IMG/VR virus record: IMGVR_UViG_3300025846_000011
Coordinates: 1 to 33,954 of that record
DNA: 33,954 bases
Origin: a virus
Direction: 5' to 3' (one strand)
Of the stretch, positions 9,310 through 27,145 are shown piece after piece (the first letter of the stretch is position 1; each line of letters opens with the position of its first letter). The notes beneath the pieces are model-generated. The model saw only the letters and a list, made by a program, of their open reading frames with translations, did not search any database and was not told where the DNA came from. The translations under genes were made by a program, and so were the position numbers.

Positions 9310-9807
9310 ATGAGCGAACATGACATCAATCCAGCATGCATAACGCGCACTGCGGAGGCGAAGGCAGACGTGGAACATGAGATTCAAGAAATGAGGCATG
9401 AGCGGGAACAACAGATTGCCGCGACGAATAAGAATGTTTCCGACTTAAACACCGCCCTTGCCATCCTGACGCGAGACGTTACCGACCTTGTTGGCGACGA
9501 GAAGACGCAAAGAGAGCGCATGGATAACCAGGACAAACTGATTACACAGATCGCACGACAAATGGAACTTGTTCAGAATTGGCAATCAGCAGAATTGACC
9601 CGCCACACGCGGGAAGAGCTTGAGAAGAAAGTTGCCATTGAGAAGGTTGCAGCAGATGTAGTCTCGACAGCAGCAACCCTGGATCAACAGAGAAAAGACC
9701 GTATCCGGCCTGTCATGGAAACGGTGTGGAAGGTAATCCAGTGGGCAACTATCCTCGCCCTCGGAAGTATTCTGAACGCAGTCTATATGCAGTATTTCAG
9801 GAAGTAG
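9310..9807 (+). CDS. Coiled-coil protein with C-terminal membrane anchor (lysis-associated?)
   Basis: This 165-residue protein has a Glu/Lys/Gln-rich helical body (residues 12-140) and one C-terminal membrane segment (about 143-161, VIQWATILALGSILNAVYM) ending in a short basic tail. This layout (amphipathic coil, Trp near the membrane face, one terminal helix) resembles XhlA-type haemolysin/holin accessory proteins, which are about half as long. It sits just before the endolysin behind a clear GGAGG site. A role as holin partner, spanin-like or membrane-tethering factor is inferred from position. Confidence 0.5.
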   Translation: MSEHDINPACITRTAEAKADVEHEIQEMRHEREQQIAATNKNVSDLNTALAILTRDVTDLVGDEKTQRERMDNQDKLITQIARQMELVQNWQSAELTRHTREELEKKVAIEKVAADVVSTAATLDQQRKDRIRPVMETVWKVIQWATILALGSILNAVYMQYFRK

Positions 9808-10560: not shown

Positions 10561-10968
10561 ATGATACCTATCGACTACAACCCGATTATTATTGCACTCA
10601 TTGGCCTTATCAGCACGGTCATCGTTACCTTGATTCCCGTTGCGGTTAATGCGTTCTTCAACGCTCAGACGGCAAAGCTTACCAAGTTGAAGACCGCCAT
10701 GGAAAACAATGAGGTCATCGCACAGAACGCCGTTCTACTCATTCAGCAAACATATGGGGCACTGGCTAACTCTGTGAAGTTGCAGTTGGCGTTTCAACGG
10801 GCTAGTGCGCTATTGAACCTGCCCGATGACACCATTAGAGACTTGCTTAATACCGCCGTTGGAGCAATGAAACTAGCGTGGGGAACGGACTGGGATTTAC
10901 TCGGAAGCAAACCTGAACCGGCGCCCCCTACGCCGCCAACCGACCCCGATACCTTACCCCTGGCTTGA
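10561..10968 (+). CDS. Holin, LL-H-like
   Basis: This 135-residue protein has one N-terminal membrane helix (about residues 8-33, IIIALIGLISTVIVTLIPVAVNAFF), then an amphipathic helix with NNEVIAQNAVLLIQQTYGAL and a further helix to about residue 115. The tail is Pro-rich. This is the arrangement of the LL-H family of phage holins. A perfect AGGAGGT site lies seven bases before the ATG, and the endolysin ends nine bases upstream. Its stop codon overlaps the -35 box of the next promoter. Confidence 0.75.
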   Translation: MIPIDYNPIIIALIGLISTVIVTLIPVAVNAFFNAQTAKLTKLKTAMENNEVIAQNAVLLIQQTYGALANSVKLQLAFQRASALLNLPDDTIRDLLNTAVGAMKLAWGTDWDLLGSKPEPAPPTPPTDPDTLPLA

Positions 10969-10990
10969 CACAGCATAGATTTGCTATAAT
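10965..10990 (+). promoter_or_regulatory. Sigma70-type promoter with extended -10
   Basis: TTGACA at 10965-10970 and TATAAT at 10985-10990 are both perfect hexamers. The -10 is preceded by TGC (extended -10). The spacer is only 14 bp, so the -35 contact may be weak and the extended -10 may carry the promoter. Transcription would start near 10997, the first base of the leader pseudoknot. Confidence 0.75.
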
Positions 10991-10996
10991 GGATAT

Positions 10997-11045
10997 GACG
11001 GGTGTGGACTCACCCCTGCATCCGTCGCTTGTTCAAACGGGTGAG
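10997..11045 (+). ncRNA. 5' leader H-type pseudoknot, copy 1 (candidate cis-regulatory RNA)
   Basis: From the predicted start site the RNA can form stem A, GACGG 10997-11001 with CCGTC 11022-11026 (plus a G-U pair 11002/11021), and stem C, CTCACCC 11009-11015 with GGGTGAG 11039-11045. The order A-C-A'-C' makes a pseudoknot. The A' to C' linker (11027-11038) is 12 nt and contains TTCAAAC. A competing local hairpin, GGGTG 11000-11004 with CACCC 11011-11015, shares stem C bases, so two states are possible. C' directly abuts AAAGGGG, the ribosome-binding site for the TTG at 11060. The same layout occurs at 17591-17667 with different stem sequences. Confidence 0.6.
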
Positions 11046-11059
11046 AAAGGGGTGAAATA

Positions 11060-11608
11060 TTGAGTGTAGTCGTTGGAATGGTAAAAGATGGCAAGGTTTA
11101 TTTGGCAGCAGATACCCGGTGTCTCGAAGGGTACGAACAGGGCGACATCAAAAAGTTGTTTGTCAATAAGCATTCACAGTGGGGTATGTGGGCTATTGGT
11201 GCAGCAGGATATATGCGAAACAGTGAGATCGCAGCAGAGTTGGACCTGCCGACATTGAGGTGGAAGGACAAGAGAAATACAACAATTTCCATGCTCTGCC
11301 GTGGATATTTCGATGCCCTTCGTGGGGAAATTGGCAACCGGGGAATCCTTAAAGACGGTGACTCTGAAACGGCATTCATGCTTGCTGTCGGAGGCCGTCT
11401 TTTTGAGGTTGAATCTTCATTTTGTATGACGGAGATTCTTGCGTCTAACGCAGTCGGTACCGGGGCGCCATACGCAAAAGGGGCGCTATGGGCACTACTC
11501 AAATATAATCCAACCATGCCCCCGGAACAGATGGTGCGTGTCGCCGTGGAAAGCGCGATATGTCACAACGTGAGTGTTGGCGGCAAGATTGAGGTTGTTG
11601 TCATATGA
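11060..11608 (+). CDS. Proteasome/HslV-like Ntn hydrolase
   Basis: This 182-residue protein matches the 20S proteasome beta / HslV fold: MSVVVGMVKDGKVYLAADTR at the start, a Gly-rich WAIGAAGYMRNSE turn, and GTGAPYAKGALWALL corresponding to the G.G..YA.GAL helix before the C-terminal sheet. After Met removal the N-terminal residue would be Ser, in place of the usual catalytic Thr1. Asp falls exactly at position 17 and Lys at 30/31, close to the Lys33 of proteasomes. Start: TTG 11060 behind AAAGGGG; a later start would lose the first strand. It overlaps the phosphoesterase by ATGA. Likely a self-compartmentalising peptidase or amidohydrolase acting in the host cytoplasm. Substrate unknown. Confidence 0.7.
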   Translation: MSVVVGMVKDGKVYLAADTRCLEGYEQGDIKKLFVNKHSQWGMWAIGAAGYMRNSEIAAELDLPTLRWKDKRNTTISMLCRGYFDALRGEIGNRGILKDGDSETAFMLAVGGRLFEVESSFCMTEILASNAVGTGAPYAKGALWALLKYNPTMPPEQMVRVAVESAICHNVSVGGKIEVVVI

Positions 11609-12390
11609 AGCTCATCGAAATGAGCGATCAGCGCAAGGCAGTCTATCTCTTGCCACTTGGCGACGTTCACGCTGGTTCGGGGCAGACAGACTACAAGAAA
11701 TTCGAAGGATACCTAGACTGGGCGAAGCGTGAGCGGGCATACATTTTCCTTATGGGAGATATGTATGATACGGTCGTCATGGGTGGTGTATCCAGTCCGT
11801 TTGATGCATCCATGAACCTCAGAGAAGCCAAGAAGTACATGCGGGATCGGCTCATGCCCGTAAAGCATCTTATTATTGGTGGTATCATCGGCAATCATGA
11901 GATGCGACTCATGCGCTATGCCAATGAAGACCTCATGGAGGACCTGTGTGATCAGCTTCAAGTTCCCTATGCCAGGTTCTCTGCCGTCCTGCGATTGAAT
12001 ATCGGACGCAAGACCGGCGACGGGGGCAAGACCGATACAACGCGCGTCCACTATGTCGCCTATTGTCATCACACAACGGGTGGTGGTGGAACCCCGGGGG
12101 GCCGGTTGAATCGGGTCTACAAACTCTCAGACATCTTCGAAGGGGCCGACGTGTTGATTGGTGCACACAATCACATGCAGGCGGGCGTTCCTGTCGACAA
12201 ATACCGCCTCCACGTGTCCGCGTCTGGGAAGGCAACCCTCAGTGCCGACAAACAGTTCCTCGTTGACTCGGGTTCGTTTGTGAAATGGAATGAGTCGTAT
12301 GCAGAGGAAAAGATGCTCGCCCCCTCCCATTGTGGCTGTCCACGAATCAGGCTGGATGGGGCGCGGAAGGATATACACGTTTCGGAATAG
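11605..12390 (+). CDS. Metallophosphoesterase
   Basis: This 261-residue protein carries all calcineurin-type metal motifs in order: GDVHAG (D20, H22), GDMYD (D52), GNHE (N97, H98), CHH, and GAHNH. It should bind two metals and hydrolyse phosphodiesters or phosphomonoesters. The substrate is unknown; phage relatives include DNA nucleases and cyclic-nucleotide or nucleotide phosphatases. It is translationally coupled to the Ntn hydrolase (ATGA at 11605), so both answer to the same promoter and leader RNA. The C-terminus (HCGCPRIRLDG) is short and probably only completes the fold. Confidence 0.8.
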   Translation: MKLIEMSDQRKAVYLLPLGDVHAGSGQTDYKKFEGYLDWAKRERAYIFLMGDMYDTVVMGGVSSPFDASMNLREAKKYMRDRLMPVKHLIIGGIIGNHEMRLMRYANEDLMEDLCDQLQVPYARFSAVLRLNIGRKTGDGGKTDTTRVHYVAYCHHTTGGGGTPGGRLNRVYKLSDIFEGADVLIGAHNHMQAGVPVDKYRLHVSASGKATLSADKQFLVDSGSFVKWNESYAEEKMLAPSHCGCPRIRLDGARKDIHVSE

Positions 12391-12569
12391 TATCGTGACG
12401 CAACAGTAAGGCAATACCGAATGGTTCGCCTTTGCGATTAAAGCTGCGGCTACGAATGGAGCACACGCCAGATAAGGCAACGGGCGGCTTACCAGCCCGA
12501 CCTTCCATCTCCCTCTTCTAAAAAATACAGGACTCGCGCTTTAGCTCGGTAAGGGGTAGCGGCGGGAAT

Positions 12570-12589
12570 AAGGGGCGGACGTTCCCCTT
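12570..12589 (+). other. Hairpin (6-bp perfect stem)
   Basis: AAGGGG 12570-12575 pairs with CCCCTT 12584-12589 across an 8-base loop. Another TAAGGGG occurs about 20 bases upstream. There is no T-run, so it is not an obvious terminator. Confidence 0.5.
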
Positions 12590-12697
12590 GAGAGATGGTA
12601 TTTTGAGTTGTAAGCAATTTCTTTATAGCTCGGTCTCCTGCATCGCATTGACGATCGCTAGGGGCTAAGTGGTGTGACGAGGAATCGCACAACCGAC

Positions 12698-12741
12698 ATG
12701 CGAGACAACACAGCCGATCCATCTAGGGTCGGCTCTCGCAT
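12698..12741 (+). other. Long two-segment hairpin
   Basis: ATGCGAG 12698-12704 pairs with CTCGCAT 12735-12741, and within it AGCCGATCC 12712-12720 pairs with GGGTCGGCT 12726-12734 (one G-T pair) around the 5-base loop ATCTA. That gives 16 base pairs, with a 7-base bulge on one side only. It is followed by TTTCC rather than a clean T-tract. It may be a terminator for the upstream operon, part of a structured RNA, or a protein-binding cruciform. Confidence 0.6.
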
Positions 12742-12873
12742 TTCCGTTCCAGCATTGCCCCAAAACCTTAGTATTCATGGAACAGAGCGGAATTATCCAT
12801 TTGGAAATATCTAAACGGATAACACCAAACGTGTTACACGGAACGTGGCACACCATAGGTGAATTGCGTTAAT

Positions 12874-12906
12874 CTTGCGGGGTACTTGCCGGGTACTTGC
12901 GGGGTT
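12874..12906 (+). repeat. 3 x 11-bp tandem repeat CTTGCSGGGTW
   Basis: Three adjoining units start at 12874, 12885 and 12896 and differ at two positions. An 11-bp period places each unit on the same helix face, as in iterons or operator arrays bound cooperatively. Confidence 0.75.
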
Positions 12907-13078
12907 TGGGATAGATACGGATTTGAGTATACATCTCCAACCTGAAATTATACCTTGTGTGCGCTTAATGCACATTGCGTTTCGCTCATTGCATATTTTC
13001 TGCGGGAACGTATGCAGATTGTACGTGGATGCACACTTTCTACAACTAGAGATGCAAGAAAGTCAAGGGCAACTCACA

Positions 13079-13098
13079 AGCAATCCTTAAGGGTTGCT
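13079..13098. repeat. Inverted repeat around CTTAAG
   Basis: AGCAATCC and GGGTTGCT form an 8-bp stem (one G-T pair) with loop TTAA. It lies just left of the AAAAGTGT arms and may be part of the same protein-binding or structured region. Confidence 0.55.
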
Positions 13099-13102
13099 CC
13101 TT

Positions 13103-13143
13103 AAAAGTGTACCACTTCCACACTTTTTGGTACGTAAAAGTGT
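13103..13143. repeat. AAAAGTGT repeats: inverted pair plus a third direct copy
   Basis: AAAAGTGT 13103-13110 and its reverse complement ACACTTTT 13120-13127 form a perfect 8-bp hairpin with a 9-base loop. A third AAAAGTGT lies at 13136-13143. Three equally long half-sites suggest a dimeric regulator or an initiator binding array. Confidence 0.65.
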
Positions 13144-13144
13144 T

Positions 13145-13183
13145 GGACACCTCCGGACACCTCGGGAAACGCCGGACACCTCC
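13145..13183 (+). repeat. Three GGACACCTC repeats
   Basis: GGACACCTC begins at 13145, 13155 and 13174, so the spacings are 10 and 19 bases, close to one and two helix turns. This fits an iteron or operator array. Confidence 0.7.
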
Positions 13184-13457
13184 ATGCCAAATTGTTGCGC
13201 TTTCTGTATACTTTCTGAATTGGATCTGCCAACTTTCTGACAACAATGTCGCAAGTTAGTCTCGCTGGATAGCGCAGGCATTGTTCTGTCATCTGTGGCG
13301 TTATCTCAAAGTTCTTGCCGTACGTTTCTTCGCTGGAAGGGGATAGCCCCGCAAATCGCACAGAATCGCGTCAGGTGCAATATGGCACAAAAGGCCATGA
13401 CAACAAGGCATATTATGATAATTCTGTCACAATTCCTCTGTACCGTTTCCATATTTA

Positions 13458-13466
13458 TGGTATACT
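13458..13466 (+). promoter_or_regulatory. Extended -10 promoter before early genes
   Basis: TGG-TATACT (13458-13466) is an extended -10 motif like those at the other three intergenic promoters. No good -35 is seen 16-18 bases upstream. Transcription would begin near 13473 and meet a terminator within 50 bases. Confidence 0.5.
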
Positions 13467-13495
13467 GTAACCGCTCCAAAGTGAGAGTGAGGTTT

Positions 13496-13522
13496 GCCCC
13501 GCCCAGCAAGACGGGGCTTTTT
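13496..13522 (+). terminator. Rho-independent terminator
   Basis: GCCCCG 13496-13501 pairs with CGGGGC 13512-13517 around a 10-base loop, followed by TTTTT. It shares the 13-base string GGGGCTTTTTCAT with the terminator at 24688-24733. Lying about 25-50 bases after the promoter, it acts as an attenuator or ends a very short RNA. Confidence 0.75.
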
Positions 13523-13702
13523 CATACCTACGCCATCCATTCACTTTTCATTCACCATTGTAAAATGGAAGTGTGCTATCCTTGTGTCAGCATCGAACGT
13601 GGAACACGAACCTTGACAATCAAAAACGGCTCCCGCTCCTAGCCTCCAAGGTGGGTACACGGTCCTAGAATACGAAACAAAATCTAACATGGAGAGTGAG
13701 AC

Positions 13703-17556: not shown

Positions 17557-17584
17557 TTGTATCAAACACGAAAGGTGGTATAAT
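17557..17584 (+). promoter_or_regulatory. Sigma70-type promoter with extended -10
   Basis: TTGTAT 17557-17562, a 16-base spacer and a perfect TATAAT 17579-17584 preceded by TGG (extended -10). Transcription is expected near 17591, the first base of the leader pseudoknot. The offset from -10 to pseudoknot (six bases) is the same as at 10985. Confidence 0.75.
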
Positions 17585-17590
17585 GAGTAT

Positions 17591-17667
17591 GGCGGCTGAT
17601 ATGGAGTTGCAAACCATATGACCGACGGACCTATCCTCGTCTGCCGCCCACAATCAAATCGGATAGG
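17591..17667 (+). ncRNA. 5' leader pseudoknot, copy 2 (candidate cis-regulatory RNA)
   Basis: Stem A: GGCGGC 17591-17596 with GCCGCC 17643-17648. Inside it are a hairpin ATATGG 17599-17604 / CCATAT 17614-17619 and a small stem GACG 17624-17627 / CGTC 17638-17641. The loop of that small stem holds CCTATCC 17630-17636, which pairs with GGATAGG 17661-17667 downstream of A'. Linkers are 6 nt (C to A') and 12 nt (A' to C', 17649-17660, ending ATCAAATC). The order A-C-A'-C' and both linkers match copy 1 at 10997-11045, with an extra hairpin inserted. C' ends 18 bases before the HNH gene ATG. Confidence 0.65.
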
Positions 17668-17685
17668 AAGGGCTAGGTGTGAGAC

Positions 17686-18210
17686 ATGATATACAAAACG
17701 AAGATTTGTCTTAGTTGCGGTCAGGAATATCAACCAACGGGTAGTCGACAAGGGTGGTGTTCTATGTGCATGCCGCAACAGGAACAGAAACGCAGGGCTG
17801 CATGGAATCTAGCCCACCACAAATTAGTGAGGGATATGGCTTATCGCGTAGAACATCGTGAAAAACTTCGAGTTGAGGCTGCGGCACGCTATATTTCTAG
17901 TCCCGAAAAGGTAAAAGCCGCCGTGGCTGCATCTGCAAAAGCCCACCCCGAAACTCGCGCCGAATGGATGGCGTTGCACCCCGAACAATGGGCCGTCATT
18001 AGAAGAAAGCATCAAGCCAAGCGGCGCACTTTCGGTTTTGTCCCACTGAATCAGCCATTTGACGGTTGTGAGGCACACCACCTAGACAAACAACGCGTTA
18101 TTTACATTCCTAGAGAATTGCATCACAGCGTCTGGCATAGTCAGTTTTCTGGGCAAGGTATGGAACAAATCAATGCCCTGGCCCTTCAATGGCTGGCACA
18201 AAATCCATGA
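17686..18210 (+). CDS. HNH-type endonuclease-like protein with zinc ribbon
   Basis: This 174-residue protein has an N-terminal zinc ribbon (CLSCGQEYQ and CSMCM, residues 8-28), a long basic helical middle, and a C-terminal segment FDGCEAHHLDKQRVIYIPRELHHSV with downstream WHSQFSGQGMEQINALALQWL. The HH of CEAHH and the LHHSVWH mark a His-Me-finger (HNH-like) nuclease of a kind found in phages and metagenomes as free-standing or homing nucleases. It is first behind the structured leader and overlaps the replisome organizer by ATGA. It may nick DNA in replication or spread as a homing nuclease. Confidence 0.65.
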   Translation: MIYKTKICLSCGQEYQPTGSRQGWCSMCMPQQEQKRRAAWNLAHHKLVRDMAYRVEHREKLRVEAAARYISSPEKVKAAVAASAKAHPETRAEWMALHPEQWAVIRRKHQAKRRTFGFVPLNQPFDGCEAHHLDKQRVIYIPRELHHSVWHSQFSGQGMEQINALALQWLAQNP

Positions 18211-24569: not shown

Positions 24570-24598
24570 TTGACTTTGCCACCCTTTTGTGCTATAAT
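24570..24598 (+). promoter_or_regulatory. Sigma70-type promoter with extended -10
   Basis: TTGACT 24570-24575, a 17-base spacer and TATAAT 24593-24598 preceded by TGC. It is the best-formed promoter in the window. Transcription would start near 24605 and would lead into the terminase/late operon if it escapes the terminator at 24688-24733. Confidence 0.8.
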
Positions 24599-24604
24599 TC
24601 CGTT

Positions 24605-24733
24605 TAGCAATGATGGGCAATGTGGCAAGGCTCCGAAAGGGGCAAGACTGTCAGTGTTCATCGGTTAAATCGGATGTTTATGACTACGCCCCACTAATCC
24701 CTTTGCTTAGTCGGGGGATAGGTGGGGCTTTTT
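24605..24733 (+). ncRNA. Candidate short terminated RNA
   Basis: From the expected start at 24605 to the terminator is about 130 nt. It contains GCTCC-GAAA-GGGGC (24630-24643), a GNRA-capped hairpin, and repeated GGCAA. No open frame with a ribosome site fits inside. It may be a regulatory small RNA or a leader with an attenuator controlling late expression. Confidence 0.45.
24688..24733 (+). terminator. Rho-independent terminator
   Basis: GCCCCAC 24688-24694 pairs with GTGGGGC 24722-24728, with an inner stem ATCCC 24697-24701 / GGGAT 24715-24719, followed by TTTTT. It shares GGGGCTTTTTCAT with the terminator at 13496-13522. Confidence 0.8.
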
Positions 24734-25013
24734 CATGTTCAGATCGAGGCACCGGGACCTCTCCGAAGTTGGATTTCGTGGCCGGTGTTTACACCGATAG
24801 GTCCTGCTGGGCCAACAGGATAGACGGCGGCTCCCTCTACGCCAATAACGCGGGAGCATTTGATTTAGAAACCCTGAGAAAGTCGGCAAATGGAACATCA
24901 AATCGGGTTCCCCTGGTGGCGGGTGTGTCTGTGGACGCCCCTGCGAGAGTTCGACACTCTCGGACCCGCTCGTTTTCTCAGTTATTGGATACTGAGCTAG
25001 AGGCTCGGTACAG
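24734..25013. other. Dyad-rich intergenic stretch before terminase genes
   Basis: No convincing gene is seen. It contains CGGTGT-TT-ACACCG (24783-24796), a GAGG/CCTC hairpin, an incomplete palindrome CCTGCTGGGCCAACAGG, a weak third pseudoknot-like pattern (24857-24909) and a tRNA-like fold (24904-24968). Lying just upstream of the small terminase block, it is a candidate packaging site or control region. Confidence 0.5.
24857..24909 (+). other. Possible third, weaker pseudoknot of the leader type
   Basis: CATTTG 24857-24862 pairs with CAAATG 24887-24892, and AACCC 24870-24874 with GGGTT 24905-24909, in the same A-C-A'-C' order. The A'-C' linker is again exactly 12 nt and ends ATCAAATC, as in copy 2. 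The C-A' linker is 12 instead of 6, stem C is short, and no good promoter lies six bases upstream, so confidence is low. Confidence 0.3.
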
Positions 25014-25431: not shown

Positions 25432-25950
25432 ATGGCTATAGCCAAGTACGATTGGTCAGTCATACGTCAGGAATACGTCAGCCATGTCGGCCCTATTGCT
25501 AAGCAAGATTTGGCAGAGAAATATGGAATGGCTTCAGAGACATTGATCAGGAAGGCCACCAAAGAGCAATGGGATATTCAGCGCGATCGTTTCCTTACCA
25601 GGGTACAAGAGCAGAAAACCGAGAAGAAGGCAGAGGTCGTCGCCACCAAGGGCGCTCAGTGGGACGCGACCTGTATGAGCAAGGCTGAGGCCCTCATGGT
25701 TCTGGTAGATGCAGAACTGAAGGGTCAGATCACACTAGACCGCGAGGGGAAACAGGTGTTGCTTCAGAGGGCCGCTAAAGATATTGGTGCGGCAATCAAG
25801 ACAGCACAGGATGTCGGCAAGGCGGCACTAGGGGATAAGCCCGAAACTACCGTCAAGATAGACGGCAAGCTTGACCTCTCCATTGAGCAAGTCATTCAAG
25901 AATATGCTGACTCCGACATCAGCCCGATTTCTACAGAGAACGGTTCTTAA
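25432..25950 (+). CDS. terS: Small terminase subunit
   Basis: A 172-residue protein directly before the large terminase, overlapping it by about 47 bases. Residues 8-55 (WSVIRQEYVSHVGPIAKQDLAEKYGM, TLIRKATKEQWDIQRDRF) look like the helix-turn-helix of phage small terminases, which recognise the packaging site. A Lys/Glu-rich coil (about 56-140) would form the oligomeric ring, and the C-terminal tail is acidic and would contact the large subunit. Confidence 0.75.
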   Translation: MAIAKYDWSVIRQEYVSHVGPIAKQDLAEKYGMASETLIRKATKEQWDIQRDRFLTRVQEQKTEKKAEVVATKGAQWDATCMSKAEALMVLVDAELKGQITLDREGKQVLLQRAAKDIGAAIKTAQDVGKAALGDKPETTVKIDGKLDLSIEQVIQEYADSDISPISTENGS

Positions 25951-27145
25951 CAACCGCTATGTCCCCCACAAGCCGACCGTCAAGCAAGCTCGGTTCCTGT
26001 TATCTCTTGAACCTGAGCTTTTGTATGGTGGGGCTGCGGGTGGTGGCAAGTCAGATGCGTTGCTCATGGCTGCGCTTCAGTTTGTCGAGATCCCGGGGTA
26101 TTCTGCGATCTTGTTTCGTCGAACCTTTCAGGACCTTAGCCTTCCTGAAGCCCTCATGGACAGAGCCGCAGGCTGGCTTAGTGGAACAGACGCCAAGTGG
26201 AATGCCATTGAGCACATGTGGTCATTCCCCAGTGGGGCACGCTTGACCTTCGGCTATCTTCAGACTGCATCCGATAAGTACCGCTATCAGTCGGCTGCTT
26301 TCCAGTTTGTTGGCTTCGACGAACTCACGCAGTTCGAGGAAACGAGTTACTCGTACCTGTTCAGCCGATTGCGCAGACCTGAAGGTTCAGTGATTCCCCT
26401 GCGTATGCGGGCGGCAAGTAACCCTGGCGGTATTGGTCATGCGTGGGTAAGGAATCGCTTTGTGGACGGCGGGAAGTTCATACCTGCAACTTTCACAGAG
26501 AATCCCTATCTTGACCATACCGCATATGAAGCATCCCTGAACATGCTGGATTCAGTGACGAGAGCACAGCTTAAGGATGGCAACTGGACAGTAGAGAATG
26601 GCATCCTGTTCAAGCGTGAGTGGTTCCATGTTGTTGATGACTACCCTCGCGATGCGAACCTTGTCCGTTATTGGGACCTTGCCGCAACTGCAGACAATGG
26701 CAGGAATGACCCCGATTATACCTCAGGTTGCCTCATTGCTGAAAAGGACGGGCGGTATTGGATCGTGGACATGGCACATACCAGGTCTACGCCCCTCGGG
26801 GTTCAGCAGCTTGTTGCACAGAAGGCAATGACTGACGGGCAAAGGGTTGGAGTATGGATGGAACAGGAACCGGGTAGTGGCGGTGTCAACACCATTGACT
26901 ACTACCGGCGCGAAGTTCTGAATGGCTATGACTTTCGAGCAGACAAGGTAACGGGTAGCAAGATGGAGCGGGCAAGGCCCCTTTCGTCTGCTGCTGAAGC
27001 GGGCAATGTCATGTTGGTTCGTGGCGCGTGGAATGAGGGTTTTCTTGATGAACTCTGCATCTTTCCCGAAGGTGGCCACGATGATCAAGTCGATGCAGCG
27101 AGTGGGGCGCTATCAAATTGCTTCCAACTCGGGCTAGTAGCGTAG
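25904..27145 (+). CDS. terL: Large terminase subunit (ATPase-nuclease)
   Basis: About 413 residues from ATG 25904; an in-frame TTG at 25871 is an alternative, and neither has a strong ribosome site. ATPase: Walker A GGAAGGGKS (about 42-50), Walker B FVGFDE (about 139), coupling motif SNPGG. Nuclease: RYWDLAAT (Asp about 258), WMEQEPGSGG, and GGHDDQVDA near the end, giving the acidic triad of RNase H-like terminases. It packages DNA into the prohead. All motifs are intact. The packaging type (headful, cos) cannot be read from motifs alone. Confidence 0.95.
   Translation: MLTPTSARFLQRTVLNNRYVPHKPTVKQARFLLSLEPELLYGGAAGGGKSDALLMAALQFVEIPGYSAILFRRTFQDLSLPEALMDRAAGWLSGTDAKWNAIEHMWSFPSGARLTFGYLQTASDKYRYQSAAFQFVGFDELTQFEETSYSYLFSRLRRPEGSVIPLRMRAASNPGGIGHAWVRNRFVDGGKFIPATFTENPYLDHTAYEASLNMLDSVTRAQLKDGNWTVENGILFKREWFHVVDDYPRDANLVRYWDLAATADNGRNDPDYTSGCLIAEKDGRYWIVDMAHTRSTPLGVQQLVAQKAMTDGQRVGVWMEQEPGSGGVNTIDYYRREVLNGYDFRADKVTGSKMERARPLSSAAEAGNVMLVRGAWNEGFLDELCIFPEGGHDDQVDAASGALSNCFQLGLVA

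Follow-up and report, generated by a model that had tools for sequence, protein, structure and literature searches.

Structured RNA leaders of HNH endonuclease genes in phages: a covarying family with a decoy ribosome site and a probable role in translational switching

Two leaders of one phage genome, each located between a promoter and a ribosome site, had been predicted from the sequence to fold into pseudoknots of the same design, which raises the question whether they belong to a family of structured RNAs and, if so, what such RNAs might do. The window, i.e. the whole stretch of DNA that we analyzed, is the complete IMG/VR record IMGVR_UViG_3300025846_000011 (33,954 bases, one strand). 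Its genes for terminase, portal, capsid and HK97-gp10 are those of a tailed phage, and no tRNA was detected in the 33,954 bases. Among known terminases, the large subunit encoded at 25871-27145 comes closest to its counterpart in Methanobacterium phage psiM2, with 51% identity; despite this psiM2-like terminase, the promoters and ribosome sites of the window are bacterial-looking.

Two leaders in the window

The first leader (copy 1) is a short form that precedes the gene for an Ntn hydrolase and consists of the following elements:

10985..10990, + strand: -10 element TATAAT with a TGC extension, read from the sequence
10997..11007, + strand: 5' strand of stem A (GACGG), then the D arm (GTGTGG, with G-U pairs); pairs with 11016-11026
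11008..11016, + strand: D loop; its strand C (CTCACCC at 11009-11015; TCACCCC at 11010-11016) is the complement of the ribosome site
11016..11026, + strand: 3' strand of the D arm and stem A, CTGCAT-CCGTC (stem A part CCGTC, 11022-11026)
11027..11038, + strand: 12-nt linker with TTCAAAC; the T-C-A-A/G-A motif recurs in the family
11039..11045, + strand: C', GGGTGAG, decoy of the ribosome site and pseudoknot partner of C
11049..11055, + strand: C'', GGGGTGA, ribosome-binding site and alternative partner of C
11060..11608, + strand: gene for a proteasome-fold (Ntn) hydrolase with a TTG start (PF00227, E 1.6e-5)

The second leader (copy 2) is a full form, with an additional hairpin, in front of an HNH endonuclease gene:

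17579..17584, + strand: -10 element TATAAT with a TGG extension, read from the sequence
17591..17596, + strand: 5' strand of stem A, GGCGGC; pairs with 17643-17648
17599..17619, + strand: hairpin B, ATATGG-AGTTGCAAA-CCATAT, with the palindromic loop TTGCAA
17624..17641, + strand: hairpin D with the loop ACCTATCC; strand C at 17630-17636
17643..17648, + strand: 3' strand of stem A, GCCGCC
17649..17660, + strand: 12-nt linker with ATCAAAT
17661..17667, + strand: C', GGATAGG, decoy and pseudoknot partner
17670..17677, + strand: C'', GGGCTAGG, ribosome site, 6/7 pairs with C
17686..18210, + strand: gene for an HNH-type endonuclease (GCEAHH...), ATG at 17686; E 1.1e-42 with a profile of leader-associated HNH C-termini of which this protein is itself one member

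On re-examination, the pseudoknot stems proposed for the two copies proved correct in every letter and coordinate, and the geometry that they were said to share, a 6-nt gap between the -10 element and stem A and a 12-nt linker with TCAAA, is indeed present in both. The sequence of the TGC-TATAAT promoter of copy 1 was also given correctly, but the TTGACA at 10965-10970 is spaced only 14 nt from the -10 element, so that this promoter is better termed an extended -10 promoter. The common plan of the two copies extends to the order A-C-A'-C', whereas a B hairpin is inserted between A and C in copy 2 only; in copy 1, stem A extends into a hairpin of 11 pairs, several of them G-U, with a loop of 8 nt. 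The nested minimum-energy fold of copy 1 employs the C:C'' pairing. In copy 2, this pairing is imperfect, with a duplex energy of -4.7 kcal/mol compared to -9.4 kcal/mol for C:C'.

The expectation that a promoter followed by A-C-A'-C' would occur above chance was not borne out: the + strand of the window contains 3 such arrangements, against a mean of 1.7 and a maximum of 4 in 60 dinucleotide shuffles. When C'' is added to the same descriptor, the window yields 2 matches, compared to a shuffle mean of 0.15 and never more than 1. Because the promoter with A-C-A'-C' alone is at the chance level, the claim has to be decided by relatives in other phages.

A family of covarying leaders and its client genes

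A search of IMG/VR with the copy 2 protein as the query yielded nine loci, most of which carry a leader of the same plan just 5' of the gene. Scanning of the whole related records with the descriptor revealed further leader copies, several per phage, and a profile of the C-terminal HNH region recovered 55 viral loci. Twenty leaders, which are related in sequence, were aligned with MAFFT (alignment A2), and the covariance model built from this alignment (R1), which encodes neither C:C' nor C:C'', produced 38 matches over 56 loci, 27 of them distinct, including 25 long forms. In whole-record searches, R1 matched at E<1e-9 in 13 of 25 records, and G002, a further record, holds several leaders. 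The 25 distinct long-form leaders come from about 14 phage records, a sample of metagenome DNA comprising few independent lineages. Instead of the two-copy family originally envisaged, there are thus many copies across phages. The strict B-hairpin pattern had no match in 84,980 bacterial and archaeal genomes, nor did the HNH profile search of genomes reveal one, so that no prophage copy was found in a host by either route. In IMG/VR, the B-hairpin pattern matched only contigs already in the set, to which the true copies of the pattern GTTCATGACC..GAAGCCGG in viral contigs were likewise confined; the copy 2 protein had no match among 50,697 phage records.

In the full form, a three-way junction joins stem A (7 pairs), which closes it, to hairpins B (6 pairs, 9-nt loop) and D (4-5 pairs, 8-nt loop), and the D loop holds strand C, which forms the pseudoknot by pairing with C'. 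Downstream follow A', a linker that usually contains TCAAA, and C'; C'' comes next, as a rule after 2-4 nt, and the start codon lies a few nucleotides on, commonly after GTGAGAGAC. The GA between B and D is invariant, and the linker carries the motif T-C-A-A/G-A, with UCAAA being frequent; copy 1 lacks the junction. Across the 20 sequences, 93% of the pairs in the four helices are standard, with a covariation score of 0.594 compared to 0.064-0.163 for slid structures, and the pseudoknot helix is 96% paired; as these values come from a MAFFT alignment of related sequences, they call for some caution. Pairs changed on both sides were observed in all four helices of the 20 seeds (6 of 6 in B, 4 of 7 in A, 3 of 4 in D and 6 of 7 in the pseudoknot). 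The earlier proposal of compensating stem changes and selection on structure is thereby upheld in relatives with strongly covarying stems and, as judged by this covariation, the leaders are a structured RNA family that extends across phages.

Leaders of other sizes were noticed in the same set. In two A+T-rich phages (L082, 448-500, and L091, 1620-1680), HNH genes are preceded by a minimal leader with one hairpin and no decoy C'; the ribosome site pairs with the loop of this hairpin (ACCAGTC or ACCTATC), and the leader is a possible simpler relative. The longer leaders of L054 (3195-3360) and L076 (5994-6150) have, beyond the junction, decoy and site, a T-run and then another conserved hairpin, CTCCCACC...GGGAG, and may also act on transcription.

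The leaders also contain a duplication: 2-4 nt beyond C' lies a second copy of it, C'', that overlaps the ribosome-binding site. On average, C matches its own C' at 6.80 of 7 positions and its own C'' at 6.90 of 7, compared to 4.27 and 4.41, respectively, under permutation among the 20 distinct C classes (0 of 20000 permutations in each case), a test that is somewhat overstated because some of the seeds were chosen by a descriptor requiring C''. Two leaders found by the covariance model only, L061 and L090:10913, match both C' and C'' at 7/7. Throughout the 27 analyzed leaders, C:C'' comprises 6-7 of 7 pairs and, in most of these, the duplex energies of C:C' and C:C'' differ by about 0.6 kcal/mol or less. 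With the pairings so nearly equal, C must choose one of two near-equivalent partners; the pseudoknot, which leaves the site free, and C:C'', which masks it, are mutually exclusive, as the two states of a switch would be. Because C' is nearer and pairs equally well, a free site might be the default, with masking as the rare condition; being made first, the decoy would favor the free state on a fresh transcript. C:C'' is the conserved alternative pairing, whereas the competing GGGTG/CACCC hairpin that had been put forward for this role is confined to copy 1.

The loop of hairpin B is unusual as well. Its middle four bases are self-complementary in 24 of the 24 aligned rows, against a background of 5% elsewhere in the alignment, with eight different centers (TATA, AATT, AGCT, GATC, TGCA, TCGA, CATG and CGCG); L061, which is gapped at this point of the alignment, has TCGA in the loop too, and copy 1 has no palindromic loop of this type. 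The palindrome lies half a base off the axis of the stem and accordingly is not merely part of one long DNA palindrome. Since two adjacent bases of one loop are unable to pair together, the palindrome calls for a partner molecule, pointing to putative kissing-loop homodimers. Within each of the eight phages with multiple leaders (L041, L032/L033, L059, L063/L078, L067, L090, L034/L035 and the window), all C/C'/C'' sequences and nearly all B-loop palindromes are different, as if selected against cross-talk. The B loop, with 9 nt arranged as 2+6+1, has the layout of the HIV-1 DIS loop. Functional RNA homodimers are rare (PMC7357161); the kissing dimers of the HIV-1 DIS and the oskar 3' UTR (PMC7357161) likewise have a self-complementary loop center, in contrast to the eight varying palindromes found here, which are set in a bacterial-type mRNA leader and would form a dimer that is putative.

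Most of the leaders are located directly 5' of HNH endonuclease genes, the products of which represent three or more Pfam families, copy 1 being an exception (Ntn). The clients of the long forms include HNH proteins of a family of their own (A1), one of which contains NUMOD3 (PF07460), as well as Endonuclease_7 (PF02945) and HNH/HNH_5 (PF01844/PF14279) proteins; the client in L039, which is 70 residues long, matches no Pfam family. The short forms precede the Ntn hydrolase gene of the window, genes for SprT-like proteins, which have no Pfam match and were named by the AHEVYH motif, and one HNH gene. The Ntn hydrolase operon, originally regarded as the target of control, is accordingly the client of one short form only, and the main clients are HNH endonuclease genes. 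HNH genes without a leader are present in the same set, so the leader is not obligatory. In related phages, the genes behind the leader of the copy 1 operon (HNH, SprT-like, Ntn and phosphatase) appear in varied combinations, and the leader of this operon is a long form in G006 instead of the short form seen in the window; this comparison is a stronger tie between copy 1 and the family than is its R1 score of only 19 bits (E 0.05 in the search of 56 loci and 0.002 in its own record).

A unit of promoter, leader and HNH gene that one phage carries can be missing from the corresponding place in a second phage, as in the case of L059, with 675 bases where the window has 40. G002 and the window differ in the HNH gene that they carry at the copy 2 locus, but the 500 bases downstream are identical in both. 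By this comparison, leader, promoter and HNH gene appear to behave as one cassette at many phage positions.

A proposed translational switch and its alternatives

We consider it likely that the leader is a mobile cis-acting translational switch that limits nuclease expression through the alternative pairing of C with C' or C''. From the pairings, their covariation, the C'/C'' duplication, the palindromic loops and the association with HNH genes, all of which are read from the sequences, we infer how the leader would be transcribed, in which direction it would switch, that it may dimerize and which purpose it could serve. Its own bacterial-type promoter would drive a short operon or a single gene, with the RNA beginning at or just before stem A. 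In full forms, this stem would close the junction of B and D, whereas in the short copy 1 it would lead directly into D. Strand C in the D loop would then act as an anti-Shine-Dalgarno sequence with two equivalent partners, the decoy C' and the ribosome site C''. While the C:C' pseudoknot is held, probably with the aid of the UCAAA linker along stem A, C'' would be free and the gene translated; when it is not, C:C'' would form and mask the site. Candidate triggers of such a change are dimerization, a small molecule, a protein of the phage or the host, and co-transcriptional timing. The presence of the cassette at many phage positions suggests that the likely job of the leader is the restraint of a mobile, potentially harmful nuclease, the expression of which would be kept low or conditional; in the window, the leader would have been placed before the Ntn-hydrolase operon as well. 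What the original prediction described as an undescribed structured, cis-acting leader adjoining the ribosome site stands, in that the leader covaries, lacks an Rfam match and is probably a switch.

In full forms, hairpin B probably kisses a copy of the same transcript, so that the state of the leader could depend on transcript dose. More tentatively, dimerization through the palindromic loop might itself flip C between the decoy and the real site, such that transcript concentration would throttle the nuclease with no protein or ligand involved; we treat such self-dosing as a possibility well short of an expectation. That all C sequences differ within the eight multi-leader phages is what orthogonal self-dosing switches would need. 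Copy 1 has no B hairpin, implying that the junction and kissing loop are unneeded for the function of the short form.

The conserved nucleotides of the junction and linker (the invariant GA and T-C-A-A/G-A) would also suit a riboswitch in which a metabolite bound in the junction and pseudoknot sets C:C' against C:C'', and a pseudoknot that competes for the ribosome site is a common expression platform. However, the clients are nucleases rather than metabolic genes, short forms have no junction and no known riboswitch model matches; ligand sensing hence seems unlikely. Alternatively, the leader could be an operator at which translation is repressed by a bound phage protein, possibly the HNH enzyme, for which the pseudoknot of T4 gene 32 provides a precedent (PMC3014915), and the presence of several copies per phage would suit one common regulator. 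This possibility is doubtful, given that the clients are unrelated (three or more HNH families, SprT-like and Ntn proteins), which makes self-binding by each of them unlikely, and that stem and loop sequences vary between the leaders of one phage. In both window copies, stem A starts at about the expected start of transcription, as it would if a stem at +1 blocked 5' decay or served transcript processing and C' and C'' were merely tandem ribosome sites, but it would remain unexplained why C covaries with C' as well as with C'' and why the B loops are palindromic, and we deem this reading very unlikely.

Four- to six-base palindromes are typical of DNA recognition sites, and the palindromic B loops might accordingly be endonuclease targets or operators in the DNA rather than RNA contacts. 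This appears quite improbable because the eight centers do not follow the type of the client HNH protein, the palindrome is displaced from the symmetry axis of the stem and the B stem covaries as RNA; a restriction-site meaning was rejected as unlikely, with no link to HNH type. In copy 2, CUGAU after stem A and GAC after B recall the core of the hammerhead, a self-cleaving ribozyme with a three-way junction. The consensus, however, is CUA(G/A)...GAA, not CUGANGA...GAAA, and no Rfam hammerhead matches even at E<=10, so that self-cleavage is hardly credible. Along with the other Rfam classes, the hammerhead was rejected.

Nothing in Rfam 15 matched at the gathering score and only unrelated chance matches appeared at E<=10, in agreement with the earlier statement that known pseudoknot classes do not fit. 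The preQ1, SAM-II and downstream-peptide/glutamine-II RNAs are translational riboswitches with pseudoknotted expression platforms. The leaders share with them a pseudoknot linked to the ribosome site and two exclusive states, but differ in the absence of an Rfam match, in their nuclease clients and in the pseudoknot partner, which duplicates the ribosome site instead of being that site. RNA structures mask the ribosome site on T4-type homing-endonuclease mRNAs, free-standing ones included, as shown for mobE and implicated for segB (PMC3014915). The T4-type I-TevI, mobE and segB mRNAs (PMC3014915) are similar to the leaders in that phage nuclease genes have a masked site, which would limit or time expression; the structures covered by that review, however, are helices that sequester the site, in contrast to the multi-helix RNA with pseudoknot, decoy and self-complementary loop that is found here at many genes. 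Judging from these features, the family is apparently akin in purpose to the T4-type occluded sites and structurally distinct from them, and is not a member of those families. In the T4 gene 32 leader, a pseudoknot controls translation and gp32 binds its own mRNA there, nucleating at the pseudoknot and spreading over the unstructured A+U-rich site (PMC3014915). This H-type pseudoknot is also upstream of the ribosome site but, unlike the family, involves no decoy, no junction and a single gene. The metastable anti-SD hairpins of the Helicobacter pylori aapA3 toxin mRNA (PMC6733600) similarly show ordered competition for one ribosome-site pairing on a harmful gene, with several anti-SDs and one SD, as opposed to one anti-SD and two SD-like partners here. 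The family itself is undescribed in the open-licence literature, to which our text searches extended, and the combination of decoy, real site and self-complementary loop was not found described in these papers.

The analysis adds a well-supported structured RNA family, outside Rfam, that is located on mobile genes of phages, and links RNA switching to the tolerance of phages for free-standing nucleases. The parts are short enough to be reused as a compact translational switch and, if the kissing loop works as proposed, the leader would be a rare natural case of an mRNA leader that senses its own dose.

Other candidate regulatory regions

A leader of a different kind is found at 24570-24740 of the window, where a consensus-like promoter (TTGACT-17-TGCTATAAT) is followed by a leader of about 90 nt in which a strong hairpin (CCCCAC...GTGGGG) and then CTTTTTC directly precede an ATG at about 24735. 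The arrangement resembles a transcription attenuator that would act on the gene before the terminase operon; Rfam gave no match for this leader. In L073 (about 9440-9600), an HNH gene is preceded by a leader with a similar hairpin and T-run. Finally, about 1.3 kb of the window (12390-13690) is devoid of convincing genes and contains short repeated stretches of the GGACACCTCC type, which makes this region a candidate origin or small RNA locus; a promoter and terminator pair near 13455-13525 could yield an RNA of roughly 50 nt.
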